Of a DNA stretch of 64,000 nucleotides, positions 1-27,064 are shown piece after piece. The notes under the pieces were generated by a model that was not told the origin of the DNA, did not search any database, and saw only the letters and a list, made by a program, of their open reading frames with translations. A program made the position numbers and the translations under genes. The DNA is from Balneolaceae bacterium (GTDB lineage: Bacteria > Bacteroidota > Rhodothermia > Balneolales > Balneolaceae): positions 62,001 to 126,000 of the forward strand of contig JAFIFB010000120.1 in the NCBI GenBank assembly GCA_020832285.1, in the 5' to 3' direction. Position 1 is the first letter of the stretch; every line of letters begins with the position of its first letter.

Positions 1-773
1 ATGCTACGCAACCCCGTAGCATAAAGCTTCCCCGTTGGATTTACCTGTTCCGTAATATTTTTACTCTCCTCCTGAACCTGGTTCAGTGAATCGGCATAAA
101 ACTTCCAGACACCGCCATGTTTTTCCAATTGGGGGCAGGGATCCAATCCCGGAGAAGCGGGCAGCCGGTTCGTTTCCTGGCATACATCAGACGGTGCACC
201 GTACGGAATGTACATATAGCCGTTGTTATCGAATGAGATCGGTTTGGCAATATGTTCGTGTGAGCCGTGTTCGTGATCATCAATCACAAGTGTATCAAGC
301 CGGGTAGTGTCTGGCAGGAGTTCTCCCGGAATAAGCGGATAGCGCATTACATGAAGATGCGTGCTGAAGTAGAGATAACCATCACGTATTGCGATACCGG
401 TTTCGTAAGAGCCGCGCGATTCCCTGCCGCCAAACCGTTTGATCAGATCTGCTTTGCCGTCATTATTGGTATCCCTGAGTGCCACAATATTGCCTTCTTC
501 GGTTGCCCTCCGAAGCTTTACATAAATATCACCGTTCTCATTTACAACAATATGACGTGCCGGGCCCACACTGTCGGCAATCATTACGGCAATAAATCCA
601 TCGGGCAGTAACAGCGATTCGTCAGATGGGAGCTGAATGGGCGTGGGTTGACAGCCAGTGAATTGAAGAGTAAAGAAAGCTGTAAGAAGAATTATACATG
701 CTGACCTTATTCGGCTGGCATCAAAATAAGATGAAATGCAGAAATGATTCACCCGGCATAGTTTATATTCCAT
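1..773 (-). CDS. PQQ-type glucose/sorbosone dehydrogenase-like lipoprotein, 3' part off the window
   Basis: Reading the minus strand from the ATG at 773 gives an open frame of 257 codons that runs off the left edge, so the C-terminus is missing. The N-terminus has a hydrophobic stretch ending in FTGC, a lipoprotein-type signal, which places the protein outside the cytoplasm. The mature part has the repeated blade motifs of soluble sugar dehydrogenase propellers: RHIVVNENGDIYV, a DTNNDGKAD loop, GIAIRDGYLYFST and a terminal LYATGLR. That family oxidises sugars or aldoses, usually with PQQ. The catalytic His and the PQQ and calcium ligands are mostly beyond the edge, so activity cannot be judged. 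It is transcribed divergently from the lactonase-like gene at 1045. A non-enzymatic propeller protein is the main alternative. Confidence 0.65.
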   Translation of the reverse strand, partial: MEYKLCRVNHFCISSYFDASRIRSACIILLTAFFTLQFTGCQPTPIQLPSDESLLLPDGFIAVMIADSVGPARHIVVNENGDIYVKLRRATEEGNIVALRDTNNDGKADLIKRFGGRESRGSYETGIAIRDGYLYFSTHLHVMRYPLIPGELLPDTTRLDTLVIDDHEHGSHEHIAKPISFDNNGYMYIPYGAPSDVCQETNRLPASPGLDPCPQLEKHGGVWKFYADSLNQVQEESKNITEQVNPTGKLYATGLRS

Positions 774-1044: not shown

Positions 1045-1989
1045 ATGAAAAGGATCGATTTTATAAAAAAGGTGGGAAGTGCCGTGTTTATTTCTGCACC
1101 GTTCCTGACTTTTTTACATGGCCAGAAACATCTCTTCTCTGATAATGACGAACTGTTTCAGGCCCGGCATTTTACTGAGCCGGGCAGTTTTACCGCCGGC
1201 ATTGAAGGCCCCGCAGTGGATATAGAAGGCAATCTCTACGCGGTAAACTTTAACCGGCAGCACACAATCGGGAAAGTTACGCCTGACGGAGATGCCACTG
1301 TTTTTGTTGAACTGTGGAACGGTAGCATTGCCAATGGCATCCGGTTCAGTAGCCGGGGAGATATGCTTCTTGCCGATTATGTGAATAATAATGTGCTTAA
1401 AGTGGACATGGAAACACATGAAATTTCAGTCTATGCACATGAACCGCGTATGAACCAGCCCAATGACCTGGCTATCGGGGCGAACGATATTGTCTATGCC
1501 AGTGATCCAAACTGGGCCGATTCCGATGGACAATTATGGCGGGTTGATCCCGATGGAAGCACTGTACTGCTTGAAGAGAACATGGGTACTACCAACGGAA
1601 TTGAGGTAAGCACGGATGAAACAAAGCTCTATGTGAATGAATCGGTGCAGCGTAATGTCTGGCAATACAATTTATCACCGGACGGAGAAGTGAGTAACAA
1701 AGAACTATTGATTCAATTCCCCGATTACGGAATGGACGGAATGCGGTGCGATGCCGATGGCAATCTTTACATTACCCGGTATGGGAAAGGAACTGTTGCG
1801 GTGGTATCACCTGAAGGAGAAGTGATTCGTGAAATTGAAATGGCCGACGGATCGAATATCAGCAATCTAGCGTTTGGCGGGCCCGACGGGCAAACAGTGT
1901 ACGTGACAGTTGCAGATATCGGTAATATTCAGGTCTTTCGTGCAGACAGACCGGGCAGAAGCTGGCTGCTATATGAGCAGAGGCGGTAA
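1045..1989 (+). CDS. SMP-30/gluconolactonase-like beta-propeller, exported
   Basis: This 314-residue protein belongs to the SMP-30/gluconolactonase family, metal-dependent lactonases that open sugar lactones to sugar acids. Expected metal-site positions are present: Glu54 in the first EGP blade, the MNQPND loop near residue 137, Asn184 in TNGI and Asp231 in GMDGMRCDADGNLY. The leader MKRIDFIKK followed by a hydrophobic stretch resembles a Bacteroidota Tat leader (MKRRDFIKK) with the second Arg replaced by Ile, so export is likely but the route is uncertain. An SDR gene follows after 32 bases, and a sugar dehydrogenase-like gene is divergent upstream. That pairing fits oxidation to a lactone and then hydrolysis. 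The true substrate is not visible. Confidence 0.8.
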   Translation: MKRIDFIKKVGSAVFISAPFLTFLHGQKHLFSDNDELFQARHFTEPGSFTAGIEGPAVDIEGNLYAVNFNRQHTIGKVTPDGDATVFVELWNGSIANGIRFSSRGDMLLADYVNNNVLKVDMETHEISVYAHEPRMNQPNDLAIGANDIVYASDPNWADSDGQLWRVDPDGSTVLLEENMGTTNGIEVSTDETKLYVNESVQRNVWQYNLSPDGEVSNKELLIQFPDYGMDGMRCDADGNLYITRYGKGTVAVVSPEGEVIREIEMADGSNISNLAFGGPDGQTVYVTVADIGNIQVFRADRPGRSWLLYEQRR

Positions 1990-2974: not shown

Positions 2975-4186
2975 ATGTTAAGCCGCAGAAAACTTTTAAG
3001 CCTTCTTGCCGCATTTCCGTTTACCGGCTGGCTGATCGGAAAAGCCGGGAATGAAACTAAAAGTAATGATCGTATGGACATGATTTTGCAAAGGGATTTT
3101 TTCAAAGAGCTCGGGGTCAGGCGGTTTATCAACGGCCAGGGAACCATCACCACGCTTTCCGGTTCACTAATGCCCCCTGAAGTACTCGATGCTATTCAGT
3201 TTGCATCTCGTGATTTTGTAAAGCTGATTGAATTGAATGAAAAAGTTGGTAATCGGATCGCGCAGATGCTCAATTGTGAAGATGCACACGTAACGGCAGG
3301 AGCAGCTTCTGCTATTCAGCTTGCCGTTGCGGCTTCCATAACCGGCAGTGACCGCGAGAAAGTGAGGAAGATCCCAAATATTCCCGGCCCTCAAAAAGAG
3401 GTGGTGATGCCCAAAAACCATCGTATATACGAGCAGCAATTTACAGCGTGCGGTGTGAAAATTGTGGAAGCCGATGGTCCTGAAGAGCTGGAAAAATCGA
3501 TCAATGAAAATACGGTGATTGGATTTTATTTTAATGCATCGCACCACCAAAGCATCTCCAGAGAGGAGTTTGTTGAGATATGCAGAAGTAAAAATATCCC
3601 TTCATTCAACGATGCTGCGGCTGATGTTCCTCCCGTGGAAAATCTTTTCAAATATATTGAAATGGGTTTCGACCTGGTTACATTTTCCGGTGGCAAGGCC
3701 ATTCGCGGACCTCAGAGTGCGGGTTTGCTGTTTGGTAAAAAAGAACTGATCGAAGCAGCCAGGCTGAACCACAGTCCCTACGGTTCTATCGGAAGGGGAA
3801 TGAAGGTAAACAAAGAAGAGGTGATCGCCATGATGGTAGCTCTTGAAAGATATCTCGAAAATGATCATGAAAAGGAGTGGGAAATGTGGGAGCAGTGGGT
3901 AGAAAAAATTGCCGAAAATGTACGAACAATTCCATCGGTTCAAACCGAAATGTTTGTCCCTGAAGTAGCCAATCATGTGCCGCACCTTCGCATCACATGG
4001 GACCCGCAGAAAATTGAGATCACTTCTGCTGAAGTGCAGGAAGCATTAAGCAAAGGAGAGCCGGCTATCGAAATTTTCAGCCGGGAAGAAGCGCTGGAGC
4101 TGAATGTGTTCATGATGAAACCCGGTGAACCCGAAATTGTGGGCAATCAAATCGAAAAAATATTGGAAAAGGCAACCAGGAGTTGA
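2975..4186 (+). CDS. SelA/DgaE-like PLP-dependent enzyme with Tat-type leader (copy 1)
   Basis: This 403-residue fold-type I PLP enzyme is of the SelA-like group that includes D-glucosaminate-6-phosphate ammonia-lyase (DgaE). The Schiff-base lysine is Lys241 in FSGGKAIRGPQSAG, the family signature, and the PLP-binding aspartates are in FNDAAADVPP (Asp213, Asp217). The N-terminus is MLSRRKLLSLLAAFPFTG, with a twin-arginine S-R-R-x-L-L pattern and a hydrophobic stretch, so the folded PLP enzyme is probably exported by Tat. Cytoplasmic DgaE relatives lack such a leader. A close paralogue lies at 13600. Family knowledge suggests amine elimination from a 2-amino acid or amino sugar acid, leaving an enamine for the nearby RidA proteins. 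It is not a selenocysteine synthase by context. Confidence 0.85.
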   Translation: MLSRRKLLSLLAAFPFTGWLIGKAGNETKSNDRMDMILQRDFFKELGVRRFINGQGTITTLSGSLMPPEVLDAIQFASRDFVKLIELNEKVGNRIAQMLNCEDAHVTAGAASAIQLAVAASITGSDREKVRKIPNIPGPQKEVVMPKNHRIYEQQFTACGVKIVEADGPEELEKSINENTVIGFYFNASHHQSISREEFVEICRSKNIPSFNDAAADVPPVENLFKYIEMGFDLVTFSGGKAIRGPQSAGLLFGKKELIEAARLNHSPYGSIGRGMKVNKEEVIAMMVALERYLENDHEKEWEMWEQWVEKIAENVRTIPSVQTEMFVPEVANHVPHLRITWDPQKIEITSAEVQEALSKGEPAIEIFSREEALELNVFMMKPGEPEIVGNQIEKILEKATRS

Positions 4187-4513: not shown

Positions 4514-5794
4514 ATGAATATGTTGGATTCGACTAATTTGTTGTTCAGTCAGGGGTTAATAATTTTTTTCTTTCTTCTCTGTATCCCGCTGCTTGCACAC
4601 GCACAGCAATACGATCTCATCTTAAAGGGAGGGCATTTAATTGACCCTAAAAATGAAATTGACTCCCCTTTTGATATCGCTGTTAAAAATGGGGAAATTG
4701 CCAGGGTAGCCGAGAATATTCCCGCCGAAGATGCTGAAAAAGTTGTGAACATTGAAGGTTACTTCGTCACACCCGGCCTGATTGATATTCACGGACACCA
4801 TTTTTTCGGCACCGAGCCTAATGCTTACCTCAGTAACAGTTTTACAGCCCTGGCCCCGGATGGTTTCACCTTCCGTGCAGGAGTAACCACGGCCGTGGAT
4901 GTGGGCGGCCCGGGCTGGACCGATTTCAGGCTGTTTAAGGAACAGGTAATTGACCGCTCTCAAACCAGGATTCTTGCTTTCATCAATATCGTTGGAGTGG
5001 GAATGAAGGGGGTGGTTCCATACGAACAAAATTTGAACGATATGGATCCCAAAATGACTGCCCTGGTTGCGAATCAGTTTCCTGAGATTGTGGGTGTGAA
5101 AATTGCACATTACAGCGGCCATGAGTGGGAGCCGTACCGTCGCACTATTGAAGCCGCAGAGGCTGCCGGAATTCCAATAATGGTTGATTTTGGCGGGGCC
5201 GATCCGCCGCTGCCGCTTGAAGAGCTTTTCTTCGATATTCTCAGGCCCGGCGACATTTATACACACGCTTATGGCGGTGGGGTTACAGCTCATGGCGGGC
5301 GGCAGTCTGTAACCGATGAAAACGGAATCCTGAGGCCGCGAATGCTGGAAGCACAGGAGCACGGCATAATTTTTGATGTAGGTCATGGCGGCGGAAGCTT
5401 TTTTTATGATGTTGCGGTTCCTGCCACAGAACAGGGTTTGTGGCCCAATACCATCAGTACTGACCTGCATACCGGAAGCATGAATGCGGGGATGAAGGAT
5501 ATGCTCAATGTGGTGTCGAAATTCCTGAATCTGGGTATGTCTTTGCCCGATGTGGTGAAAGCATCTACGTGGAAGCCAGCCCAGGTTATTCAGCGCGAAG
5601 ATCTTGGCCATCTGAGCGAAGGAGCAGTGGCTGATATTGCCGTATTCAGCCTTGAAGAAGGCGATTTTGGATTTGTGGATTCCAGGGGTGTGGTAAAACC
5701 GGGAACTCAAAAACTGTACACAGAACTTACACTTCGGGAAGGAAGGGTTGTCTGGGATTTAAACGGACTGGCAGCGCCCACCTGGGGTGAATAA
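4514..5794 (+). CDS. Exported amidohydrolase/deacetylase-family metallohydrolase (copy 1)
   Basis: This 426-residue amidohydrolase-superfamily enzyme is related to the EF_0837/Atu3266 deacetylase group. Metal-site residues are visible: His93 and His95 (DIHGHH), the probable carboxylated Lys196 (VGVKIAHYSGH) with His199 and His203 nearby, His251 in THAYGGG and Asp317 in STDLHTG. The N-terminal hydrophobic segment ends LLAHAQQ, a Sec signal peptide, so it acts outside the cytoplasm. In other genomes this family often accompanies SelA/DgaE-like PLP enzymes, as it does here, where N-deacylation ahead of amine elimination makes sense. Its closest relative is the paralogue at 7066. The start could also be the Met two codons later. 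Confidence 0.85.
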   Translation: MNMLDSTNLLFSQGLIIFFFLLCIPLLAHAQQYDLILKGGHLIDPKNEIDSPFDIAVKNGEIARVAENIPAEDAEKVVNIEGYFVTPGLIDIHGHHFFGTEPNAYLSNSFTALAPDGFTFRAGVTTAVDVGGPGWTDFRLFKEQVIDRSQTRILAFINIVGVGMKGVVPYEQNLNDMDPKMTALVANQFPEIVGVKIAHYSGHEWEPYRRTIEAAEAAGIPIMVDFGGADPPLPLEELFFDILRPGDIYTHAYGGGVTAHGGRQSVTDENGILRPRMLEAQEHGIIFDVGHGGGSFFYDVAVPATEQGLWPNTISTDLHTGSMNAGMKDMLNVVSKFLNLGMSLPDVVKASTWKPAQVIQREDLGHLSEGAVADIAVFSLEEGDFGFVDSRGVVKPGTQKLYTELTLREGRVVWDLNGLAAPTWGE

Positions 5795-6013: not shown

Positions 6014-6493
6014 ATGAAAACAGTTAAAAATCACTCCTCGCGGCGGGCAGCAATCAGGTCAATGTTTGCAGCGATACTGGGCGGTACTGCAGGAATTTTT
6101 GGTGTGTCGCGGGCAGAATCTTCTCCCGGGAAGAAGGTAAAACTGGCAGAAAGTGAATCATCCGCCCAACCGCTGATTGCCCAGCATGTGGTTCATGGAA
6201 ACCTTGTATTTGTGAAGGGAATGGGTGCGCACGATGAACCCGACATCAAAAAGGCTACCACCATTGCCCTCGATCAGATCGAACGGGAACTGGAAAATGC
6301 CGGGAGTTCAATGAATAATGCGCTTCAGGCAACCGTTTTTCTTGCCAACATCCGCGACTATGATGCCATGAACGAAGCGTACAGGGGACGATTCGGAGAC
6401 AATCCGCCCGTGCGCTCAACGGTGGCCTGTTATAAGGGAATTCCTGGGAATTCACTCGTCGAAATCGACTGTATTGCGGCACTTCAGCGATGA
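6014..6493 (+). CDS. RidA/YjgF-family protein with Tat-type leader (RidA-1)
   Basis: This 159-residue RidA family member has an added N-terminal leader. RidA proteins hydrolyse reactive enamines and imines released by PLP enzymes to keto acids and ammonia. The substrate-binding Arg is present as Arg134 in PVRSTVACY, and the C-terminal VEIDCIAA matches the family's EIExxA segment. The leader holds SSRRAAIRSMFAAILGG, a twin-arginine pattern, so this member is probably periplasmic, unlike the usual cytoplasmic RidA of about 130 residues. It stands 43 bases before a close tandem copy and near Tat-type PLP enzymes, which argues for enamine clearance in the same compartment. Confidence 0.85.
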   Translation: MKTVKNHSSRRAAIRSMFAAILGGTAGIFGVSRAESSPGKKVKLAESESSAQPLIAQHVVHGNLVFVKGMGAHDEPDIKKATTIALDQIERELENAGSSMNNALQATVFLANIRDYDAMNEAYRGRFGDNPPVRSTVACYKGIPGNSLVEIDCIAALQR

Positions 6494-6536: not shown

Positions 6537-7034
6537 ATGAAAGTTACTGAAACCAAAACATCAAGAAAATCAGCCCTGAAATCGATGTTTGCAGCTGTGG
6601 TATCAGCAGGGGCAGGTTTGCTGGGTGTATCAAAAGCCGGTGCTTCCGGTTTGAACAACAAAGATGTATCCATCAAAAAGATTCCGGACCAAAAACAATC
6701 GGAATCCGGCAGGCAGCCGCTTTTTTCGAGTGTGGTTGTTCACGACGGACTGGTGTATGTAGCCGGAAAAGGGGAGCATGGCGAAGGAGATATCACCGTA
6801 CATACAACCTCGGTGCTTGATCAGATTCAAGCTGAACTGGAAGGAGTGGGCTCATCGATGGAAAAAGTGCTGAAAGTAAATGTTTACCTCCACGATATGC
6901 GCGACTATGATGAGATGAATGCAGCTTATCGCGGGCGGTTTGGTGACAGTCCGCCAGTACGTTCTACAGTAGCCTGCTACAACGGCATTCCCGGAAACTC
7001 CCTTGTTGAAATCGACTGCATCGCAGCACTCTGA
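6537..7034 (+). CDS. RidA/YjgF-family protein with Tat-like leader (RidA-2)
   Basis: This tandem paralogue of the preceding RidA protein is 165 residues long. The functional Arg is conserved (Arg142 in PVRSTVACY) and the last 40 residues are almost identical to RidA-1. The leader TSRKSALKSMFAAVVSAGAG has Arg-Lys where a Tat signal has Arg-Arg, so the export route is less sure, but a hydrophobic leader and a following spacer are plain. An amidohydrolase gene starts 31 bases downstream, and the RidA-1, RidA-2, amidohydrolase and RraA genes are likely one operon. Confidence 0.85.
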   Translation: MKVTETKTSRKSALKSMFAAVVSAGAGLLGVSKAGASGLNNKDVSIKKIPDQKQSESGRQPLFSSVVVHDGLVYVAGKGEHGEGDITVHTTSVLDQIQAELEGVGSSMEKVLKVNVYLHDMRDYDEMNAAYRGRFGDSPPVRSTVACYNGIPGNSLVEIDCIAAL

Positions 7035-7065: not shown

Positions 7066-8325
7066 ATGACCCGAAAATATTTCCATCACCGGTATTTGCT
7101 CATTCTCCCGTTGATCCTTCTGATTGTCCTGCCGGTTCAAAGCCTGGCACAAAATTACGATCTGTTACTTAAAGGCGGCCATGTGATCGATCCGAAAAAT
7201 GAGATAGACGCACCCCGCGATGTTGCCATCAAAGACGGAATCATTGCAAGGGTTGCACCGGATATATCTGAAGAAAGTGCAGAACGAGTGGTGGATGCAA
7301 ACGGCCTCTACATCACTCCGGGATTGATTGACATACACAGCCACAATTACCACGGTACCATTCCGAACCGTTCATGGAGTAACAGTTTTGGATCTTTGCC
7401 GCCCGACGGTTTCACGTTTCGCTCTGGTGTAACTACCACGGTTGATGTGGGCGGGGCAGGCTGGAGAAACTTTCAGCATTTTAAAGAGCAGGTGATTGAC
7501 CGTTCCCGGACCCGTGTGCTTGCGTTTATCAACATAGTGGGGGATGGCATGAGCGGCATGCCCGAGCAGAATCTGAACGATATGGATCCGCGGATGACAT
7601 CTATCGCAGCCAACCGTTATTCGGAAGTTGTGGGTGTAAAAATTGCTCATTACAGTGGTCACGACTGGGAGCCTTATCACCGAACCGTAGAAGCCGCTGA
7701 GCGTGCCGGAATCCCGGTGATGGTCGATTTTGGCGGAGCGCAACCACCCCTTCCACTCAATCAGCTGCTGCTTGAAGTTCTTCGTCCCGGTGATATCTAT
7801 ACACACGCTTTTGGCGGGGGTGTGGCGGTTCGTCAGGCTGTAACGGATGATGAAGGCAACCTGAGGGACGGAATGATGGAGGCACAGGAACGCGGAATTA
7901 TTTTTGATATCGGCCATGGAGGAGGTAGTTTCTTTTACGATGTGGCTGTGCCTGCTACGGAACAGGGGCTCTGGCCGAACACTATCAGTACCGACCTGCA
8001 CACCGGCAGTATGAACGACGGTATGAAAGATATGCTCAATGTTGTTTCCAAAATTATGAATCTGGGGATGCCGCTTCAAAAAGCCATTGAGGCGTCTACC
8101 TGGAAACCTGCACAGGTGATCCAGCGTGAAGATCTGGGCCACCTTAGCGAAGGCGCTGAAGCCGATATTGCAGTACTGAGGTTGAAACAGGGGAATTTCG
8201 GTTTTCCGGATGCTCGCGGATATAATATCACCGGAAGCCGTAAACTCGAAGCGGAGTTAACCCTGCGGGAAGGGCGTGTTGTCTGGGACCTGAACGGCAT
8301 CGCTGCCACTCCATTTCAAGAATAA
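7066..8325 (+). CDS. Exported amidohydrolase/deacetylase-family metallohydrolase (copy 2)
   Basis: This 419-residue paralogue of the enzyme at 4514 shares long identical stretches around the active site. It has His91 and His93 (DIHSH), the probable carboxylated Lys192 (VGVKIAHYSGH), a THAFGGG histidine and the Asp of STDLHTG. The Sec signal peptide ends LPVQSLAQ. It is packed between RidA-2 (31 bases upstream) and the RraA-like gene (24 bases downstream), so it is almost certainly cotranscribed. Keeping two copies suggests two related acyl substrates or two regulation states. Deacetylation is inferred from the family, since the superfamily also contains dihydroorotases and other amidases. Confidence 0.85.
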   Translation: MTRKYFHHRYLLILPLILLIVLPVQSLAQNYDLLLKGGHVIDPKNEIDAPRDVAIKDGIIARVAPDISEESAERVVDANGLYITPGLIDIHSHNYHGTIPNRSWSNSFGSLPPDGFTFRSGVTTTVDVGGAGWRNFQHFKEQVIDRSRTRVLAFINIVGDGMSGMPEQNLNDMDPRMTSIAANRYSEVVGVKIAHYSGHDWEPYHRTVEAAERAGIPVMVDFGGAQPPLPLNQLLLEVLRPGDIYTHAFGGGVAVRQAVTDDEGNLRDGMMEAQERGIIFDIGHGGGSFFYDVAVPATEQGLWPNTISTDLHTGSMNDGMKDMLNVVSKIMNLGMPLQKAIEASTWKPAQVIQREDLGHLSEGAEADIAVLRLKQGNFGFPDARGYNITGSRKLEAELTLREGRVVWDLNGIAATPFQE

Positions 8326-8349: not shown

Positions 8350-9300
8350 ATGTACGGAAAATCCATCCTTTTTTTATCTCTGATTATTTTGTTGTCCACA
8401 GCAACACTTTACGCACAATCGATTCCTGATGATCATATTGTAGCATCGGTGGAAGAAGTGCTCTACTACACCTCTGAATGGGACGGTGAGCGCCTGCCGG
8501 ACGGCCGCCCTAAAGTTGATGACGAATGGCTTGAAAGGCTCAAAAATGTAAAAGTGGAGGATGTCTGGCAATATCTGAACGAAATGGGCTACCGAAATCA
8601 GTTTGAAGGTGGCTGGAAAATTCTGCACGAAGATCGCCCGATGGTCGGAAGAGCACTCACCACGCAATACATGCCCAAGCGCCCCGACATCATGGAGAAA
8701 AAAGAGCGGGAGGGCCTGGATGCCGGACATATTGGTGCGATGAATTCCTGGCCTATTGATATGCTGCAAAATGGAGACATCTATCTTGCTGATTCGTTCG
8801 GGAAAATTGCCCAGGGCACACTGATTGGCGACAAGCTCGGAAACTCGATTTTTGCAAATTCAGAAAACGGAGTCATTTTTGACGGGTCACTCAGGGATGC
8901 GGAAACCCTTGCTAATATCGATGGTTTTAACGCCTTTGTGCGCGGCTGGCACCCTTCATTCCTGGAAGAGACTATGCTGATGGGAATTAATGTGCCGATA
9001 CGTATCGGAAAAGTAACGGTGATGCCGGGAGATGTTATTCTTGCAAAAAGCATGGGCGTGGTATTTATTCCGCCGCACCTTGTGGAAGAGATCGTAACCA
9101 CAGCAGAAATCGTAGCACTGCGGGATGAGTTTGTACATCAGAGGGTCCGGGAAGGTGTATACACACCTGGTCAGGTTGATGCACGGTGGACCGATGCGAT
9201 GGAAGAAGATTTCATGGAGTGGGTTCAGGACGGCCGTTTGGATCGCCTGCCGGTAACACTGGAAGAGATGCAGGAATTTCTGCAGCACCGAACGTGGTAA
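8350..9300 (+). CDS. Exported RraA-like class II pyruvate aldolase/decarboxylase
   Basis: This 316-residue protein contains the RraA/HMG-aldolase fold. It has the D-X20-R-D signature of 4-hydroxy-4-methyl-2-oxoglutarate aldolases exactly: Asp161, then twenty residues, then Arg182-Asp183 in DGSLRD. That argues for retro-aldol or oxaloacetate decarboxylase chemistry rather than RNase E inhibition. The N-terminus is a clean Sec signal (SLIILLSTATLYAQS), unusual for this normally cytoplasmic family. It is also longer than the usual 160-240 residues, with extra segments before and after the core. It closes the RidA/amidohydrolase operon. In the proposed pathway it would split a 2-keto acid into pyruvate and an aldehyde. 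Confidence 0.8.
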   Translation: MYGKSILFLSLIILLSTATLYAQSIPDDHIVASVEEVLYYTSEWDGERLPDGRPKVDDEWLERLKNVKVEDVWQYLNEMGYRNQFEGGWKILHEDRPMVGRALTTQYMPKRPDIMEKKEREGLDAGHIGAMNSWPIDMLQNGDIYLADSFGKIAQGTLIGDKLGNSIFANSENGVIFDGSLRDAETLANIDGFNAFVRGWHPSFLEETMLMGINVPIRIGKVTVMPGDVILAKSMGVVFIPPHLVEEIVTTAEIVALRDEFVHQRVREGVYTPGQVDARWTDAMEEDFMEWVQDGRLDRLPVTLEEMQEFLQHRTW

Positions 9301-9853: not shown

Positions 9854-10993
9854 ATGACAGAAAAAATTTACAGAGCTTGTCTTATTCTCGCGGGTCTTTG
9901 CATACCGGTAATCATAGTAATGCTGGCTCTGGGCTATGGGCCGGAAACGGGTGTTTTTGTAATCGGATTTTTTACGCTGGCTGCGATTGGAATCCGCAGT
10001 CTTTCCCATCTGAAAGGTTTTTCATTTACCATTTGGGTTTTCGCGGCTGTTTCCCTTGCTATGTTTTATCCGCAAACGATTACAGATGTGAGAGGTTACA
10101 ATACGGAAGGGTTAATTGTTCCACTTGTTCAATTGATTATGTTCGGGATGGGGACAGCAATGAGTGTTCAGGATTTTGTAGGGGTCATAAAAATGCCAAA
10201 AGGGGTGTTTGTCGGGCTGGTATGTCAGTTCTCCATCATGCCGATTGTGGGCGTTACGCTGGCACTTTCGATGGGTTTCCCGGCAGAAATTGCTGCGGGT
10301 ATTGTACTGATCGGTTCATCGCCAAGCGGTGTGGCCTCAAATGTGATGGCATTCCTGGCCAAAGGAAATCTTGCACTCTCCATCACACTTACGGCTGTTG
10401 CCACTCTTATGGCTCCTATCATGACGCCATTTCTTATGCAAACATTTGCAGGCCAGTTTGTACCCATAGAATTTATGAGCATGATGATGAGTATCATCAA
10501 CATGATTATATTGCCGATTGCGGCCGGCCTTCTGTTTAACCGCATTTTTCGCGGGAGGGCCCAGTGGCTGCACAATGCCATGCCGGCAATCTCAATGGCA
10601 GGTATCGTGATCATTATCGGCGTCATTACCGCAGCAGGCAGGGATAATTTGCTGGTAATCGGTTTTCTGCTGATACTGGCTGCCATCATTCACAATGCAG
10701 CCGGGTATATCCTGGGATATTGGGGATGCCGCCTGTTTGGAATGGACGAAAGAGATTGCCGTACCATCGCTTTAGAAGTGGGAATGCAAAACGGAGGATT
10801 GGCCTCAGGCATTGCAGTGGAAATGGGCAGAGCCGCCACGATGGGACTTGCCCCGGCTATTTTCGGTCCCTGGATGAATATTTCGGGATCATTCCTGGCA
10901 AACTGGTGGCGCGACCGTGCACCACTTGATGAAGAAGAAGTTGGCACTGATGAGGCCGGTCAAACAGATGATTTAAAAAAAAATGAAGATTGA
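9854..10993 (+). CDS. Bile acid:sodium symporter (BASS) family transporter
   Basis: This 379-residue inner-membrane protein has about ten hydrophobic helices and the BASS fold signatures, including a conserved glycine-rich GSSPSGVASNVMAFLA in one discontinuous helix and ALEVGMQNGGLASGIA in the other. Family members move bile acids, pyruvate or other organic anions with sodium. Placed between an exported catabolic operon and a carbohydrate-binding protein, it is a good candidate for importing the keto acid formed outside the cytoplasm. Substrate is inference. It ends in a charged Glu/Asp-rich tail. The upstream 550 bases are filled by repeat families A and B. Confidence 0.85.
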   Translation: MTEKIYRACLILAGLCIPVIIVMLALGYGPETGVFVIGFFTLAAIGIRSLSHLKGFSFTIWVFAAVSLAMFYPQTITDVRGYNTEGLIVPLVQLIMFGMGTAMSVQDFVGVIKMPKGVFVGLVCQFSIMPIVGVTLALSMGFPAEIAAGIVLIGSSPSGVASNVMAFLAKGNLALSITLTAVATLMAPIMTPFLMQTFAGQFVPIEFMSMMMSIINMIILPIAAGLLFNRIFRGRAQWLHNAMPAISMAGIVIIIGVITAAGRDNLLVIGFLLILAAIIHNAAGYILGYWGCRLFGMDERDCRTIALEVGMQNGGLASGIAVEMGRAATMGLAPAIFGPWMNISGSFLANWWRDRAPLDEEEVGTDEAGQTDDLKKNED

Positions 10994-11088: not shown

Positions 11089-12270
11089 ATGAAGTTCAGA
11101 AATCTATTTTTACTATTCACAGTTTGCAGCCTGGCGCTTCTGGTTGCTTTTTCCGTTGCTCCCGAAAATGAAAAAAAGCTTTTGGTTGATGATGAAAAAT
11201 CAGCCGGTATATATCTTGCTAATGATGCGCAAAGGCAGGGTTTTGCCGTTCCGATGATTCCGTTTCAGCCGAAACATTATATCGTTTACCGCACTGATGA
11301 ACCGATTGAGATCGACGGGCGGATCGATGAAGAGGCCTGGGCGAAAGCAGAGTGGACGGATTATTTTGTGGATATTGAAGGCCATCTTAAACCATCGCCA
11401 AGATATCGTACGAGGGCCAAAATGCTTTGGGATGATGACTATTTTTATTTCGCAGCAGAACTGGAAGAGCCCAATGTGTGGGCTACTCTCACTGAGAGAA
11501 ACTCCGTTATTTTCCACGATAATAACTTTGAAATCTTTATTGATCCGAACGGGGATACCCACAACTACTTCGAGTTTGAAATCAATGCCTTCGAAACTAT
11601 CTGGGATCTTTTTCTGACGCGTCCCTATCGCGATGGCGCCCAGGTGATCAACCAGTGGAACCTGCTTGACTATCAGGCAGGTGTTTATATCGACGGGGAA
11701 ATTAACAATCCCGGGGTAGAAGATAACAAGTGGACAGTAGAAGTTGCACTGCCCTGGAGTGCTTTGCAGGAAACAGCTCCCGGCAGAAGGCCTCCCCGGC
11801 ATGGCGAACAGTGGAGGGTAAACTTTTCGAGGGTTGAATGGCTGCTGGATGTTGTTGACAACGAATACCAGAAACGAATCAATCCGGAAACGGGCAATGC
11901 ATATCCCGAGGATAACTGGGTCTGGTCTCCCCAGGGCCTTGTAAATATGCACTATCCCGAAATGTGGGGGTTTGCTCAATTCTCGGAAAATACTGTAGGT
12001 GAAGCTGAAGATGAATTCGAATGGAATCGCGACGAGGAGATTAAATGGGCACTGAGGCAGGTCTACTATGCGCAAAGAAACTACAGAAGCGAACATGGAG
12101 TATTTGCCGATGATTTCCGCAAGCTGAAAATGGCACTGCTTGAAATTGAAGGGTACGATTTTAAACCCACGATTGAGGTCACTAGCAATATGTACGAAGC
12201 CATTGCTGAAAGCATTGACGGCGAACGAACCTGGCATATCCGCCAGGATGGAAGAATCTGGCAACAATAA
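11089..12270 (+). CDS. Exported CBM9-like carbohydrate-binding domain protein
   Basis: This 393-residue protein has an N-terminal hydrophobic leader and a CBM9-like domain (about residues 65-300). Typical features are the opening PIEIDGRIDEEAWAKAEW, the strand DDYFYFAAELEEPNVWA and NNFEIFIDPNGDTHNYFEFEINA. Such domains bind sugars or occur at the end of secreted enzymes; no catalytic domain is visible here. The C-terminal 90 residues (AQRNYRSEHGVFADDFRKL and following) form a small extra domain often seen with this family. It lies 95 bases after the symporter and 27 bases before a RidA gene, so it likely belongs to the same unit and may hold substrate at the cell envelope. Confidence 0.8.
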   Translation: MKFRNLFLLFTVCSLALLVAFSVAPENEKKLLVDDEKSAGIYLANDAQRQGFAVPMIPFQPKHYIVYRTDEPIEIDGRIDEEAWAKAEWTDYFVDIEGHLKPSPRYRTRAKMLWDDDYFYFAAELEEPNVWATLTERNSVIFHDNNFEIFIDPNGDTHNYFEFEINAFETIWDLFLTRPYRDGAQVINQWNLLDYQAGVYIDGEINNPGVEDNKWTVEVALPWSALQETAPGRRPPRHGEQWRVNFSRVEWLLDVVDNEYQKRINPETGNAYPEDNWVWSPQGLVNMHYPEMWGFAQFSENTVGEAEDEFEWNRDEEIKWALRQVYYAQRNYRSEHGVFADDFRKLKMALLEIEGYDFKPTIEVTSNMYEAIAESIDGERTWHIRQDGRIWQQ

Positions 12271-12297: not shown

Positions 12298-12897
12298 ATG
12301 GCCAAAACCCAATCCAGCAAAACTAAAAAAACCGTTACCCTATGGTTTTTGATTCCAACCCTGTTATTAACCGTTGCTTTATTTACCGGAATGGAAAGAA
12401 CTTCAGGTACAGATCAGGACCCGCTTTACGATTATGATGTGGAGGAAAGGATCGCGGAGCTTGGTATTGAACTGCAAACTCCCACCCCGCCAACCGCCAA
12501 TTATGTGCGTGCTATCCGCACCGGAAATCTTGTGTTTCTTGCCGGCCACGGGCCCGACAGGCCGGAGGGCGGCCAGGTAACAGGGACTATGGGAACCGGT
12601 GAACTGACCCTTGAAGAAGGGCAGGAAGCAGCGCGTTTTACCGGAATCTCTCTGTTGACATCACTCAAAACAGAAATCGGTGATTTGAATAAAGTCAGCC
12701 GGATCGTTAAAGTTACAGGAATGGTCAATGCCGATCCGTCGTACACCGAACATTCACAGGTTATTAACGGATTCAGCGATCTGATGGTGGAAATTTTTGA
12801 GGACCGGGGACGTCATGCACGCGCATCCGTCGGTATGAGTTCGCTGCCCGGCAACATTCCTGTGGAGATCGACATGATTGTGGAAGTTGCCGATTAA
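12298..12897 (+). CDS. Membrane-anchored RidA-family protein (RidA-3)
   Basis: This 199-residue protein has a single N-terminal transmembrane segment (WFLIPTLLLTVALFTG) preceded by Lys residues, so the RidA domain faces the periplasm. The domain belongs to a different RidA branch from the pair at 6014/6537, with a longer loop (GPDRPEGGQVTGTMG). The key Arg is Arg175 in HARASVGMSSLPG and the C-terminal VEIDMIVEV is conserved. The next gene is a close paralogue carried as a lipoprotein. Role: probable hydrolysis of enamine or imine products from the neighbouring PLP enzyme. Confidence 0.8.
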   Translation: MAKTQSSKTKKTVTLWFLIPTLLLTVALFTGMERTSGTDQDPLYDYDVEERIAELGIELQTPTPPTANYVRAIRTGNLVFLAGHGPDRPEGGQVTGTMGTGELTLEEGQEAARFTGISLLTSLKTEIGDLNKVSRIVKVTGMVNADPSYTEHSQVINGFSDLMVEIFEDRGRHARASVGMSSLPGNIPVEIDMIVEVAD

Positions 12898-12960: not shown

Positions 12961-13512
12961 ATGAAATCATTGATCACGATATTACTTGCAGCCGGACTTC
13001 TCATTTCCTGTGCAGATGAACAAGCTCAGCAAACCACGGGAAATGACCATGATGTTGCAGAACGGCTTGCTGAACTTGGAATTGAACTTACAGAACCCGG
13101 TCCGCCGGTTGCCAATTTCGTGTATGCTGTTCAGACTGGAAATCTTGTTTTCTTATCCGGCCATGGTCCGGACAGGCCAGAAGGCGGCCAGGTAACCGGG
13201 AAACTGGGTACAGGTGAACTAACCCTTGAAGAAGGCCAGGAAGCAGCACGACTCACCGGAATAGCCCTGCTTGCATCACTCCAGCAGAAAATTGGTGACC
13301 TGAACCGAGTTGAACGTATTGTGAAGGTGAACGGTATGGTAAACGCCGATCCATCTTTCACCCAGCATTCACAGGTTGTTAACGGATTCAGTGATTTGAT
13401 GGTAGAGATTTTTGGTGATAAAGGCCGCCACGCCCGGGCATCGATCGGGATGAGTTCACTTCCCGGAGATATAGCTGTGGAGATTGATATGGTGGTTGAA
13501 ATCTCGGATTGA
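12961..13512 (+). CDS. RidA-family lipoprotein (RidA-4)
   Basis: This 183-residue protein is nearly the same as RidA-3 through the catalytic domain (Arg159 in HARASIGMSSLPG), but its N-terminus is a lipoprotein signal, LLISC, followed by an acidic spacer. The two paralogues thus use different envelope anchors. A PLP enzyme gene follows by 87 bases, so a PLP-lyase/RidA partnership is visible in gene order. RidA proteins carried as lipoproteins are not something I know from characterised systems. Confidence 0.85.
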   Translation: MKSLITILLAAGLLISCADEQAQQTTGNDHDVAERLAELGIELTEPGPPVANFVYAVQTGNLVFLSGHGPDRPEGGQVTGKLGTGELTLEEGQEAARLTGIALLASLQQKIGDLNRVERIVKVNGMVNADPSFTQHSQVVNGFSDLMVEIFGDKGRHARASIGMSSLPGDIAVEIDMVVEISD

Positions 13513-13599: not shown

Positions 13600-14811
13600 A
13601 TGATCAACCGACGCAAAACCTTAAAAATATTGGCAGGTCTGCCTTTTATTGGCGGAATGGCCGCCTCCGCACTCATTACAAAACCGTCCGGCGCAAAGCT
13701 GGAGAGGCCAAGGTATTCCCGTGATTTTTTTACCGAACTGGGACTGAGGCCTTTCATTAATGCGCGCGGCACTATTACGGCCCTGTCTGGTTCTCTGATG
13801 CTGCCTGAGGTGATGGAAGCTGTTAACTATGCATCGCAGCAGTTTGTGAGCCTGAACGATTTGCAGGACAGGGTGGGTGAGCGAATTGCTGAAATGCTGA
13901 ACTGTGAAGCGGCGATGGTTTCATCGGGTGCTGCAGCGGGTATGACTCTCGGTACAGCAGCCTGCATCACCGGCGATGACCGGGAGAAAATACGCCTGCT
14001 GCCAAATCTGCCCGGACCAGAGCGTGAGGTTATTATCCAGAAAACTCACCGCTTTGCCTATGACCACGCTGTAAGAAATTGCGGTATAAAACTGGTTGAA
14101 GTGGATGGGCCCGAAGAGATGGAGCAGGCCATTAACGAACGAACTGTGATGATGCTCTTTTATAATGCTGCTTCGGAACACAGTGTCAGCAAGGTAGAAT
14201 TTGTAGCTATCGGCAAACGTCACAATGTACCCACCTTTAACGATGCTGCTGCTGATGTGCCCCCAGTCGAAAATCTTTTCAAATATACGGAGATGGGTTT
14301 TGATCTGGTTACATTTTCAGGCGGAAAAGCAATGAAAGGCCCCCAGAGTGCCGGACTTCTATTTGGCCGAAAAGATCTTATTGAAGCAGCTAAAATGAAT
14401 AATAATCCAAATGCCGATTCCATAGGGCGCGGTTTTAAAGTAAATAAAGAGGAGATACTGGCTATGATGGTTGCGCTGGAAAATTACCTCGGTCGCGACC
14501 ACGAAAAAGATTGGCAGGAATGGGAAAACCGGGTTGATCGGATCGCCTCGGCCGTAGAAAATATTCCAACGGTGGAAACCGAACAGTATGTACCGGCAGT
14601 AGCCAACCACGTGCCGCACCTGAGAATCACATGGGATGAAGAAGAACTGAAGGTTACACCTGAAGAAGTGAGAGAAAAGCTGAGGTTCGGACATCCCTCT
14701 ATTGAGGCTGCCGGGGGCGGGAATTCGCTGGATTTGAGTGTTTTTATGATGCAGCCTGAAGAAGTGGGCATTGTGGGACGAAGGATAAGAGAAGAGCTCA
14801 CTTCAAATTAG
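13600..14811 (+). CDS. SelA/DgaE-like PLP-dependent enzyme with Tat leader (copy 2)
   Basis: This 403-residue paralogue, equal in length to the enzyme at 2975, has the Schiff-base lysine Lys243 in FSGGKAMKGPQSAG and PLP aspartates in FNDAAADVPP (Asp215, Asp219). The leader MINRRKTLKILAGLPFIGG fits the Tat consensus (N-R-R-K-T-L-K) well, better than most proteins in the window. It ends the block of CBM9-like protein, RidA-3 and RidA-4. An inverted copy of repeat A follows within 10 bases of the stop. The likely reaction is elimination of ammonia from an amino acid or amino sugar acid outside the cytoplasm. Confidence 0.85.
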   Translation: MINRRKTLKILAGLPFIGGMAASALITKPSGAKLERPRYSRDFFTELGLRPFINARGTITALSGSLMLPEVMEAVNYASQQFVSLNDLQDRVGERIAEMLNCEAAMVSSGAAAGMTLGTAACITGDDREKIRLLPNLPGPEREVIIQKTHRFAYDHAVRNCGIKLVEVDGPEEMEQAINERTVMMLFYNAASEHSVSKVEFVAIGKRHNVPTFNDAAADVPPVENLFKYTEMGFDLVTFSGGKAMKGPQSAGLLFGRKDLIEAAKMNNNPNADSIGRGFKVNKEEILAMMVALENYLGRDHEKDWQEWENRVDRIASAVENIPTVETEQYVPAVANHVPHLRITWDEEELKVTPEEVREKLRFGHPSIEAAGGGNSLDLSVFMMQPEEVGIVGRRIREELTSN

Positions 14812-15777: not shown

Positions 15778-15931
15778 TAAAACTGCCGTGAAGGTTGCCT
15801 ATAGATTAAGGTCAGGAAAATTCAACGATTTAAATCGGGTAGCATTCAAATAAAATACGGTGGTAAATAATCAGCAAGATAAGGTAGGATTTATCTCATT
15901 CTATCAACTTCAACAACATAAAAATAAACCT

Positions 15932-18900
15932 ATGCAACAATACAAATACTTTCGCTTCATTAATTTGTGCGTATTGTTATTGTTTGCAGTCAACTTTACG
16001 TTGCATGCACAAGAACGAACAATAACAGGTACAGTTACCTTTGTCGAGGATGGCTCATCGCTTCCGGGGGTAAACGTAATGGTGGTTGGAACCCAGATTG
16101 GTACAACTACAAATGTTGACGGAGAATACTCTCTCCGGATTCCAGAAGATGCCCAGCAGCTGCGGTTCTCATACATTGGAATGTCTGCACAAACTTTTGC
16201 AGTTCCATCAGATACCGATGTATTAAATGTGGTAATGGAAGCACATGCATCAGCTATGGATGAATTAGTTGTTACTGCTCTTGGTATTACAAGGGAAAAA
16301 AGAACCATTGGATATTCTTCCACTTCACTGACCGGTGAAAATGTTTCTGTTTCATCTCAGGTCAATCCCGTTAATGCTCTTCAGGGAAGAGTGGCCGGGC
16401 TTGATATTCAGCAGACAGATGGCGGAACCTTTGGTGGCAGTCGTATTACCCTGCGCGGTAATTCTGTACTTGGTGGAAATAACCAGCCGATTTTCGTTGT
16501 GGATGGTGTGGTGTATGAAAATCAGACATCCGGTGCTGATCAGTGGGGAGGTAGTGACTGGGGCAACCAGCTCAAGAACCTGAATCCTGATGAATTTGAG
16601 TCGGTTACCGTGTTGAAAGGAGCTGCGGCTACGGCACTCTACGGTTCTCGTGCAATTAACGGTGTAGTTGAGATTACAACCCGCCAGGGTCAGTCTCGGC
16701 CCGGTATTGGTGTTCGTTTCAGCCAAAGAACTCACGTTAAAGATCCTTATGACGGACCTGCTTTTCAAAACGTGTTTGGGCCGGGAACAATTCCTGGTGC
16801 TGCCAGCGGTTTGAGCGACCCGTGGAATGTTCAAAATGAATTTTTTGTCGACTCTGAGGGCAGACCTTTTTACCAGCGAAACCAGCTTTCATTCGGTCCC
16901 CGAATGGACGGGCAGACGATGGTTCTGGATCTTGACGGACAGACGATGATACCGAACAATCCTCAACCAAATAACTTTCTTGATCTCTATGAGAGAGGAT
17001 TTTATAGCAATACAAATCTGCAGATTGATGGCGGCAGTGAATCAACGACATTCTTGATTTCCGGAACGAACACAACCGAAACCGGGACAACACCCAATAA
17101 CGACTTCAATCGTTCGTCGATATTTTCAAGGGTTACTCATCAATTGAATGATTACATTCGGGCAGATGTGGGCTTAAGCTATGCACACAGCACGGCTGAA
17201 AATCCACCCGGTAATAACCTTCAGCACGCCTTTATTACATCTAACTTCTTCAGAAACTACGATACAGCCAAGTGGAGAGATCAGTACAGAGCTTCGCACG
17301 GGGGTGTTCCCTCAACGGCGCATGGAGATCAGCTTGGGTCTGTGCCGAACCTGAACGTATTTTTCGCTCTGAATGAAAACAGGAATCAGAGAGTTGAGGA
17401 GACCTTGCGTCTTACCACGAAAGTTAACTTTAATATTGCCGAGTGGTTTAATATTGATCTGGATGGTTACATCAATAATTACTATATCCGTAATGAAAAC
17501 AGGGTATTAGGACAAGGTTTTGCAAATGCGGGCGGATCCTATATGCTTGGTCACCAAAGAAGAGAAGAGCTCGACGGAAAGATCTTCTTTAACTTCCTTG
17601 GGCAGATCTCTGAGGATCTTTCCGGTTCATTCACAATTGGAGCAGAACACTTCAGCCAGGAGGCATCTTCAACCAGTGCAAACACCAACGGCGGGCTGAC
17701 TGTGCCCGGCCAGTACTTCCTTGCCAACAGTGTAAACACACCTACAGCGAATGCAAGTGTGTTCGGAACCAAGCAGATGAACTCGGTATTCAGTTATGCA
17801 AACGTGGAGTGGAGAAATCAGCTTTTTCTTAATCTTACCGGTCGTCATGACTGGACATCCACACTGACCTATTCCGACGGAACAGGAAACAACAACTATT
17901 TCTATCCTTCGGTAAGTTTGTCATGGCTTGCAACCGAAACCTTTGATCTGCCGGATCTCTTTTCTTATGTGCAGTTCAGGGGATCTTATGCCGAGGTAGG
18001 TAATGACTACAGTATCTACTCTATCAACCCCGGGTTTGCTCACCAGGGCAACCTTCAGGCACTTACCGGACAGAACCTTGTAAGGGTTTCCCATAACAGC
18101 ACTGTGGTACCAAACCTTGATCTGCAGCCAGAGCGTAAAAAAGCCTGGGAGTTTGGTACGGATGTCCGCGTTCTGAATGAAAGAGTAGGACTCGATTTTA
18201 CATGGTATCGTGAGAACACAATTAACCAGATTCTCAATATTCCTGTACCCTCTGAAACCGGAGTAACCGCACAGTTGATCAACGCTGGAGATATTCAAAA
18301 CCAGGGCATTGAGATTGCTCTTAACACGCGAATTATAGAGCGGCCAGATCTGCGATGGGGTATCGACTTTACGTACACCCGCAACAGAAATATGATTAAA
18401 GCTCTGTATCAAGATATCGAACGGTTCAACCTCTATGAGAGTGCCACATTTGGTAACACCCGTGTGGGTACCGTTGCGTTTGTAGGTGAAGAGTGGGGAA
18501 TTCTCTACTCAGATTCTGCCCCCGCAGTAGATCCTGAAACCGGAATGAAACTCCTGAACTGGAACAATTCATTACGAGGTGCAACTCATTTCCGATCAGG
18601 CGAACAGCAGGAAGTGGGTAACATGAATCCCAAATTTCTTGGAAGTGTAAGTACAAACGCATACTACAAAGGATTTAGCCTCAGTGTGTTGTTAGATGCT
18701 AAGATTGGAGGAGATGTTTCCAACTATGCCGGCCGATATGGTCATTCATACGGGAATCTGGAATCATCGCTCAAGTGGCGTGACCTGGAATATGGCGGAA
18801 TGGAGTGGACTTCCCGCCACACCGGAAATACCTATACAGATGGTATGATCCCTGATGGAATATTCCGGGATGGCACCACGATTGATGGTGTGGATGTAAG

Positions 18901-19267
18901 CGGCATGACCTATCAGCAAGCTTTCGATGCAGGCCATGTTGATCCTACACATGCCGGTTTCTGGCACCAGCAAAACAACAACTGGGGAAATGGAGTTATC
19001 AACGAAAATGTAGTTCACGAAAATTCCTATATCGGAATTCGTGAAGTGATGCTTGGTTATGACGTTCCTGTTCGAATTGCCAACAGCTTAAACGTGAATA
19101 GCCTCAGAATAGCCGTATTCGGAAGAGATCTTGGCTTCCTGTACAAAACCATGCCGAATAATATGCATCCGTTCTCTGTGCGAAATACCCATGCAGGATC
19201 TGCACACGTTTGGGGTGTTATTCCCTACATTCGGACCATTGGCGTGAACCTGGATATCCAATTTTAA
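15932..19267 (+). CDS. SusC-like TonB-dependent outer-membrane transporter (pair 1)
   Basis: This 1111-residue protein counts from the Met at 15932, chosen because it aligns with the start of the paralogue at 30223 and gives a proper signal peptide (CVLLLFAVNFTLHAQ); the frame is open from 15860. After the signal come a carboxypeptidase-regulatory-like domain (ITGTVTFVEDGSSLPGVNV), a TonB-box-like DELVVTALG, the plug domain (ALQGRVAGLD, ITLRG, IFVVDG, VLKGAAATALYGSRA) and a long beta-barrel ending in an aromatic residue. It imports oligomers or other large solutes with the SusD lipoprotein encoded 40 bases downstream. No polysaccharide-degrading enzyme is next to it, so the ligand cannot be named. 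Confidence 0.92.
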   Translation: MQQYKYFRFINLCVLLLFAVNFTLHAQERTITGTVTFVEDGSSLPGVNVMVVGTQIGTTTNVDGEYSLRIPEDAQQLRFSYIGMSAQTFAVPSDTDVLNVVMEAHASAMDELVVTALGITREKRTIGYSSTSLTGENVSVSSQVNPVNALQGRVAGLDIQQTDGGTFGGSRITLRGNSVLGGNNQPIFVVDGVVYENQTSGADQWGGSDWGNQLKNLNPDEFESVTVLKGAAATALYGSRAINGVVEITTRQGQSRPGIGVRFSQRTHVKDPYDGPAFQNVFGPGTIPGAASGLSDPWNVQNEFFVDSEGRPFYQRNQLSFGPRMDGQTMVLDLDGQTMIPNNPQPNNFLDLYERGFYSNTNLQIDGGSESTTFLISGTNTTETGTTPNNDFNRSSIFSRVTHQLNDYIRADVGLSYAHSTAENPPGNNLQHAFITSNFFRNYDTAKWRDQYRASHGGVPSTAHGDQLGSVPNLNVFFALNENRNQRVEETLRLTTKVNFNIAEWFNIDLDGYINNYYIRNENRVLGQGFANAGGSYMLGHQRREELDGKIFFNFLGQISEDLSGSFTIGAEHFSQEASSTSANTNGGLTVPGQYFLANSVNTPTANASVFGTKQMNSVFSYANVEWRNQLFLNLTGRHDWTSTLTYSDGTGNNNYFYPSVSLSWLATETFDLPDLFSYVQFRGSYAEVGNDYSIYSINPGFAHQGNLQALTGQNLVRVSHNSTVVPNLDLQPERKKAWEFGTDVRVLNERVGLDFTWYRENTINQILNIPVPSETGVTAQLINAGDIQNQGIEIALNTRIIERPDLRWGIDFTYTRNRNMIKALYQDIERFNLYESATFGNTRVGTVAFVGEEWGILYSDSAPAVDPETGMKLLNWNNSLRGATHFRSGEQQEVGNMNPKFLGSVSTNAYYKGFSLSVLLDAKIGGDVSNYAGRYGHSYGNLESSLKWRDLEYGGMEWTSRHTGNTYTDGMIPDGIFRDGTTIDGVDVSGMTYQQAFDAGHVDPTHAGFWHQQNNNWGNGVINENVVHENSYIGIREVMLGYDVPVRIANSLNVNSLRIAVFGRDLGFLYKTMPNNMHPFSVRNTHAGSAHVWGVIPYIRTIGVNLDIQF

Positions 19268-19307
19268 TCAGCGGATGTTCTCAAAAGCATCTTAAAAAAA
19301 TAAGATT

Positions 19308-21014: not shown

Positions 21015-21050
21015 TAAGTGCCTGGTTTAGTATAATATGTTAAAATTAAA

Positions 21051-21085
21051 AAAGGGTGCCCGTTTATTCGCGGCACCCTTTTTTT
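21051..21085 (+). terminator. Terminator of susCD-1
   Basis: Stem AAAGGGTGCC / GGCACCCTTT with an 11-base loop and a T run. The surrounding 55 bases recur in decayed form at 26970-27024. Confidence 0.85.
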
Positions 21086-21184
21086 GTTTCTATAAGACAA
21101 GAATTGTTGTGGGAAAATTTAAATAGTGGTTGTAAAAAACCAGCCATCCCCGGGAAGGTGTTCCAATTATCTCAATAACTAATG

Positions 21185-21300
21185 TTAAGTCAATTCTGAT
21201 TTGCCGGGTAAAGACCTGGCACCTTTCTACTTGGTATACTAACCATGTATGAGATAACGAACAAAACCTGTCAGGTCTCAAAAATGTTAGTGTCTTGACT
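21185..21300 (-). repeat. Dispersed repeat, family R1 (inverted copy)
   Basis: On the minus strand this reads GAGACCTGACAGGTTTTGT, a divergent middle, CCAGGTCTTTACCCGGCAAA and TTGACTTA, matching the other R1 copies. It is followed (21300-21350) by a partial family C sequence with GTAGTGTCAATTGCAAAAGTGTGAG. Confidence 0.65.
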
Positions 21301-21411
21301 TGTGTAGTGTCAATTGCAAAAGTGTGAGAAAGTCTTCAGGCGAATCGATATAAAGAAGAAAAAGGGAGTGCTTATAATTATTGTGAAGATTGAACCAGTC
21401 ACACACATTTT

Positions 21412-21423
21412 GGAAGCGGTTCC
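21412..21423. promoter_or_regulatory. LacI-type operator upstream of susC-2
   Basis: GGAAGCGGTTCC is one base away from the perfect palindrome upstream of susC-1 and susC-3. The flanks also align (TTTGGAA...GGTTCCAATTGAATA), and a degenerate counterpart of the second palindrome lies about 21 bp upstream. Confidence 0.6.
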
Positions 21424-21443
21424 AATTGAATATTTTTCACCTA

Positions 21444-21474
21444 TTTGAAATCTTTTAGTATTATTTTACATTTG
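21444..21474 (+). promoter_or_regulatory. Bacteroidota-type promoter of susC-2
   Basis: TTTG (21444-21447), 19 bases, then TACATTTG (21467-21474), a full match to the TTTG/TAnnTTTG consensus. The leader to the start codon is about 150 bases. Confidence 0.65.
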
Positions 21475-21627
21475 TAAATCCGTTGGGTTGAATGCTGAGA
21501 GATAGAGGGTCGGGTTATATCAACGATATTAGAAAGCTATCATATTAGATGAGACACAGCGGTAAAAACCAGCAAGGAAAATAGGCTCCATTCATGCTAT
21601 AATAATCAACATCATATATATAAATGT

Positions 21628-24756: not shown

Positions 24757-24767
24757 TATATATTGTC

Positions 24768-26675: not shown

Positions 26676-26751
26676 CTAAAAGTTGATTTATATTTGTAGT
26701 TTAATACAAATAGAACCAACTTAATTTATTGTACAATTTACCGTGATGGGC

Positions 26752-26781
26752 AAAAAAACCGGAGTTATTTCGGTTTTTTTG
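26752..26781 (+). terminator. Terminator of susCD-2
   Basis: Stem AAAAAAACCG / CGGTTTTTTT with a nine-base loop, 76 bases after susD-2. The A-rich left arm makes it usable on both strands. Confidence 0.75.
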
Positions 26782-26969
26782 TTTAATACAATTCTAAAAT
26801 CTTAGTGAATGGTTGCAGGTTGATTTAAAATCATCCAGTATATTATTAATTTTAATATATTTATAGCTGATTTTATGAAAAATAAAAGTACATATAAGAA
26901 TACCATTATTACATATTTCATAGTATTAAATTTATTGCTCTGGTAGATATAAAAATGCTGATTCAAACA

Positions 26970-27024
26970 ATATGTTAAAATTGATAAAGGATGCCCGTTT
27001 GTTCGCGGCACCCTTTATTTTTGT
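26970..27024 (+). repeat. Decayed copy of the susCD-1 terminator region
   Basis: AATATGTTAAAATT, AAAGGATGCCCGTTTGTTCG and CGGCACCC repeat the bases around 21034-21085 with a few substitutions, one of which weakens the stem. It lies about 300 bases after susD-2, just before the hydrolase gene. Confidence 0.75.
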
Positions 27025-27064
27025 AGTACCTTTTTTTACTTAACCCGGATAAACTTACACGATC

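Follow-up and report, generated by a model that had tools for sequence, protein, structure and literature searches.

Conserved twin-arginine leader on a DgaE-like PLP enzyme and a cassette of leadered proteins suggest deamination in the envelope of a Balneolaceae bacterium

The window, i.e. the whole stretch of 64,000 nucleotides analysed (contig JAFIFB010000120.1, positions 62,001 to 126,000), contains two genes for PLP enzymes together with genes for Rid-family proteins, amidohydrolases, an RraA-like aldolase, a transporter and further predicted envelope proteins (Table 1). The two PLP enzymes share 57% identity, both carry a twin-arginine leader, and copy 2 falls in a different subclade of the tree from copy 1. 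The motif around Lys241 of copy 1 reads SGGKAIRGPQ. A preliminary description had taken the ORF of copy 1 for a complete PLP enzyme with Lys241 behind a twin-arginine leader, and the ORF, this motif and the alignment with the catalytic lysine of DgaE confirm this; the export leaders of the neighbouring proteins had gone unmentioned. The metal ligands HxH, K, H and D of the amidohydrolase adjoining copy 1 are conserved in comparison with 2ogj and 8je0. As leaderless RidA copies are present elsewhere in the genome, the leadered RidA proteins are additional ones.

Table 1. Features of the cassette and of PLP enzyme copy 1 (positions in the window).
Feature	Position	Strand	Remarks
GSDH beta-propeller/cytochrome c lipoprotein	1..773, runs past left edge	-	601 aa; L044:10968-12773; PF07995 and PF00034
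SMP-30/gluconolactonase-like protein, predicted exported	1045..1989	+	PF08450
SelA/DgaE-fold PLP enzyme, copy 1, predicted exported	2975..4186	+	ATG, 403 aa; N terminus MLSRRKLLSLLAAFPFTGWLIGKAG
Twin-arginine leader MLSRRKLLSLLAAFPF of copy 1	2975..3046	+	about residues 1-24; candidate cleavage G-K-A at 22-24
Twin arginines R4-R5, codons	2984..2989	+	R4 invariant, R5 at least 90% R in 68 sequences
Catalytic Lys241 (Schiff-base lysine), codon	3695..3697	+	invariant in 68 sequences; aligns with K213 of 7lc0
Amidohydrolase/deacetylase (cog3964 type)	4514..5794	+	hydrophobic Sec-type leader; NF006689 414 bits (cut-off 371)
RidA, Tat-type leader (SRRAAIR)	6014..6493	+	PF01042; catalytic Arg conserved
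RidA, Tat-type leader (SRKSALK)	6537..7034	+	PF01042
Second amidohydrolase/deacetylase	7066..8325	+	Sec-type leader
RraA-like aldolase	8350..9300	+	PF03737; Sec-type leader; aligned RD motif
SBF/PanS-like inner-membrane transporter	9854..10993	+	PF01758; NF047939 241 bits (under cut-off 400)
CBM9-like domain protein, predicted exported	11089..12270	+	PF06452
Rid-family protein, N-terminal hydrophobic anchor	12298..12897	+	
Rid-family lipoprotein	12961..13512	+	LLISC lipobox; orthologue with same leader
PLP enzyme, copy 2, predicted exported	13600..14811	+	403 aa; start MINRRKTLKILAGLPF; leader MINRRKTLKILAGLPFIGG

An RR or RK leader was found in 17/17 homologues from the same genus and family (three of them RK), with R4 invariant in all 17, P15 and G18 invariant in the 16 intact ones, and bodies down to 34% identity. 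The pattern held in 68 aligned homologues (bodies again down to 34%), where R4 and P15 were invariant and R5 was replaced, where seen, by K. For export signals, a crude pattern scorer was used. Among 84,980 species scanned, all 80 nearest loci, from Balneolota, Bacteroidota and Acidobacteriota, had an RR/RK leader; for six of them the automatic start at an internal Met was replaced by the true start, which carries RR in each case. Since such a scan could favour leadered sequences, TIGR01437, a model without leader positions, was run as a control on 394 genomes of the phylum, and 13/13 matches had the RR/RK leader. A comparable pattern arose in 94 of 20,000 composition shuffles of residues 2-40; a chance origin of the leader was rejected on account of its conservation. 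Of the 34 changes within codons 1-30 of the three more diverged orthologue pairs, 24 fell on codon position 3, a bias absent from the 60 bases upstream of the ORF in the same pairs. By this pattern of substitution, the leader evolves as coding sequence. It has the make-up of a Tat substrate, i.e. at the true N terminus, conserved twin arginines (R-K in a few members) ahead of a hydrophobic stretch, and a TatC is encoded in the genome (PF00902, 195.8 bits, cut-off 25.1). Judged by sequence, the leader of copy 1 is real and conserved. Only about 33 of the 80 loci have an A-x-A site after the leader, so some family members may remain anchored.

An ordinary cytoplasmic DgaE-like lyase would result if translation began at Met34 or Met36 and the leader stayed unused. 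Both residues are found just ahead of the conserved core, at the place where DgaE proteins that lack a leader begin. However, the 96% orthologue has Ile instead of M34, a Met is missing at this place in copy 2 and in the remaining family, and M36 is likewise unconserved, whereas the leader occurs in all homologues examined, evolves as coding sequence, and is accompanied by leaders on the neighbours in the same cassette. A start at Met34/Met36 was hence rejected, and we regard an unused leader as highly improbable. A conserved alternative start skipping the leader, which the preliminary description had named as evidence against its own reading, was thus searched for and not found; the Tat leader that it proposed for an enzyme of the SelA/DgaE fold is strongly supported by conservation in every homologue seen. 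Its further statement that PLP enzymes of this fold act in the cytoplasm in every known case is contradicted by PvdN and PtaA of Pseudomonas, PLP enzymes exported by Tat in the folded state with PLP bound (PMC6206403), of which PvdN belongs to fold type I (PMC7497351). An exported PLP enzyme is therefore not new in kind. PvdN and PtaA modify a siderophore side chain, whereas a DgaE-like family occurs here together with leadered RidA, amidohydrolase and aldolase.

Leaderless relatives from Rhizobium, Aminobacter, Haladaptatus, Haloarcula, Klebsiella and Lacticaseibacillus begin within about 10 residues of the core. In the tree, the 67 nearest leadered rows form one clade (100/100 support) in which every row is leadered and which excludes the leaderless sequences (DgaE, Rhizobium and Haladaptatus); long-form leadered proteins and plasmid outgroups sit on long branches, and their exact placing is unsure. 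The long form (about 530-575 aa) has an extra C-terminal stretch and a Tat-type leader (L029, L030, L136, L137, L159:6701-8299). One related Balneolaceae genome (G039; L033-L039) has about 10 copies of the leadered PLP gene on several contigs. One copy (L024) contains an internal TAA stop, and in L093, a record titled Arcobacter sp. (MAG), the PLP copy and the adjoining RidA resemble the Bryobacterales locus L098; this record is probably mislabeled.

Copy 1 scored 41.9 bits with the Pfam SelA model (cut-off 22.8) and 210 bits with TIGR01437, the subfamily model of the DgaE family (under the cut-off of 385). It missed the curated cut-offs for DgaE (170 bits against 600) and for the SelA equivalog TIGR00474 (50.8 bits against 267.9); membership in true DgaE or SelA was rejected on this basis. 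No SelA N-terminal domain was found ahead of the PLP core, the model aligning to SelA only from about residue 63. The AlphaFold2 model of copy 1 (mean pLDDT 90.9, low confidence at residues 14-30) was closest to Cap15 among solved structures (8t7j; Z 39.0, rmsd 2.0, 347 aligned), alongside DgaE (7lc0; Z 37.5, rmsd 2.4, 349 aligned), with SelA well under both (Z about 26). The model assigns copy 1 to fold type I, like DgaE, SelA and Cap15. With DgaE it shares the fold, the catalytic lysine, the core length and 27-31% identity. D213 is invariant, like K241, in the 68 sequences and aligns with D189 of 7lc0; the catalytic lysine that is K213 in this chain is numbered Lys-217 in the text of PMC9529869.

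DgaE differs from the leadered family in that it is leaderless, acts on a 6-phosphate, and has phosphate arginines as well as His162/163. A docked DgaE model places Arg301, Arg332 and Arg346 close to the phosphate of the substrate (PMC9529869). The corresponding columns of the leadered family mostly contain S/H, V/G/N and G, respectively, the alignment near R332 varying with the method. Since these arginines are not conserved, an unphosphorylated substrate would fit. His163 of DgaE protonates the enamine, and the H163A mutant releases it (PMC9529869). In the leadered family, the columns of His162/163 mostly contain A/N/S or gap/N/T; copy 1 has HH nearby, at 190-191, where its 96% orthologue has PH. 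The enamine release by H163A, a family without the conserved histidine and the presence of RidA were, taken together, counted in favour of a lyase. Histidine loss and RidA do not strictly go together: in Rhizobium and Aminobacter, the leaderless relatives combine HH with a RidA gene.

Neighbouring genes were counted in 41 loci of Bacteroidota/Balneolota whose flanks are complete. The PLP gene is accompanied by an amidohydrolase in 37 of them and by a Tat-type RidA in 32 (median gap 26 bp), followed by GSDH-cyt c (30), RraA (23), lipoprotein-type Rid (20), SBF (14) and SMP-30 (12); except for SMP-30, the partners are nearly always on the strand of the PLP gene. GSDH-cyt c occurs in 42/87 neighbourhoods, and this beta-propeller/cytochrome c lipoprotein may represent an oxidising first pathway step. 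Most Acidobacteriota loci have fewer partner genes. A simple scorer assigned export leaders to 83/88 Rid proteins, 53/58 amidohydrolases and 32/34 RraA proteins, several of the remainder being truncated or leadered by eye. On an annotated plasmid of Granulicella tundricola, RraA, PLP enzyme, RidA, a second long PLP enzyme, amidohydrolase and lactonase stand in a row. Each of them has a leader, which is of Tat type in the two PLP enzymes, in RidA and in the lactonase. In RefSeq, the PLP enzyme is labelled only 'aminotransferase class V-fold PLP-dependent enzyme'.

The DgaE cassette of Klebsiella (consecutive genes for amidohydrolase/deacetylase, DgaE, KDGP aldolase and lactonase) resembles that of the window in amidohydrolase, aldolase and lactonase, but its aldolase is DgaF-like, whereas that of the window is RraA-like. 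In Aminobacter, an ABC transporter, an amidohydrolase, RidA and the PLP enzyme are found together. The PLP enzymes of Rhizobium, Aminobacter and Klebsiella are leaderless, as are RidA or amidohydrolase where present, and ABC or PTS-type genes adjoin; the N terminus of the Klebsiella lactonase, in contrast, is signal-like. Given these leaderless cassettes of Klebsiella and Aminobacter, one functional set seems to exist both inside and outside the cytoplasm; the case for a catabolic role rests mainly on this.

Cap15, the top structural match, is an O2-dependent oxygenase and not a lyase, which counts against a lyase. The leadered protein might accordingly be an exported O2-dependent PLP oxygenase/decarboxylase like Cap15 or PvdN, which makes or tailors a compound instead of degrading one; the higher Z of Cap15 and the Tat export of PvdN agree with this. 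We consider it improbable, as the sequence scores favour DgaE (137 bits) over Cap15 (98 bits) and the set of amidohydrolase, RidA, aldolase and lactonase parallels the catabolic cassette of Klebsiella. The substrate of Cap15 is a beta-hydroxy alpha-amino acid; Cap15 itself belongs to a Streptomyces antibiotic pathway, and the description consulted here mentions no export cassette.

The reading preferred here, with a probability of about 0.65, is that of a Tat-exported DgaE-like ammonia-lyase working in the envelope with RidA, amidohydrolase and aldolase as partners. From the leaders, the fold and the cassette, we infer how the protein is exported, which reaction it catalyses on which substrate, and in what order the steps follow. 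The enzyme would fold and bind PLP in the cytoplasm and then cross the inner membrane via Tat. The amidohydrolase would free the amine from an N-acyl substrate; the PLP enzyme, most likely an envelope ammonia-lyase, would let the 3-hydroxyl of an unphosphorylated 2-amino-3-hydroxy acid leave as water and release an enamine/imine. The co-exported RidA would hydrolyse the latter to a 2-oxo-3-deoxy acid and ammonia, and the RraA-like aldolase would split the oxo acid. Uptake of the oxo acid by the SBF/PanS-like transporter is possible. The conserved leadered cassette suggests that a whole deamination pathway is located in the bacterial envelope. Only tentatively, and at less than even odds, we extend this to a complete envelope catabolism of an N-acylated amino sugar or another beta-hydroxy amino acid, comprising oxidation, deacylation, ammonia loss, RidA action and aldol cleavage; ammonia and enamines would arise outside the cytoplasm, only small oxo acids would be imported, and the PLP and RidA proteins would be folded before Tat export.

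A specific form of the ammonia-lyase reading is the degradation of N-acetyl-amino sugars by an oxidative envelope route, in which GSDH-cyt c would oxidise the sugar, SMP-30 open the lactone, the amidohydrolase deacetylate, the PLP enzyme and RidA form 2-keto-3-deoxyaldonate, RraA cleave this and SBF import the product. The cassette holds a predicted envelope enzyme for each step, and an amino-aldonate substrate is attractive because the same chemistry has been shown in the cytoplasm for GlcNAc1A: in the ong oxidative chitin pathway, a deacetylase (OngB) is followed by a PLP deaminase (OngC), and a RidA protein of the cluster, OngD, is needed for growth (PMC9537276). In contrast to the proposed route, the ong pathway is cytoplasmic, OngB is a relative of D-aminoacylase, and OngC is of fold type III (PMC9537276); as copy 1 is of fold type I, the parallel is functional only. 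An AA10 LPMO and a GH20 hexosaminidase were not found in the genome, so that a chitin/LPMO substrate in this strain was rejected. Taken as a whole, this route is rather unlikely.

What appears to be new, as far as sequences tell, is the setting, i.e. a conserved cassette of leadered proteins around the PLP enzyme. No description of a DgaE-like family exported with RidA, deacylase and aldolase was found in the literature searched, nor one of an exported RidA or a Tat-exported DgaE-like enzyme, a Rid-family survey included; this negative result is weak, most subscription journals being outside the search. Deamination of amino compounds in multiple steps is usually assigned to the cytoplasm. If the ammonia-lyase reading is true, reactive enamine chemistry can be held apart from the cell's own PLP enzymes, the large set of proteins bearing only the aminotransferase class V-fold label gains a function, and Tat has a new passenger family dependent on cofactor loading.

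Further along the window, three SusC/SusD-type pairs follow the cassette (15860-35318), and another pair lies upstream of the window (L044:1306-6006). A large secreted protein with a T9SS-like C-terminal sorting tail (SGVYIYRLQAGNTVLSRKLTLIK) is encoded at 46543-49194.
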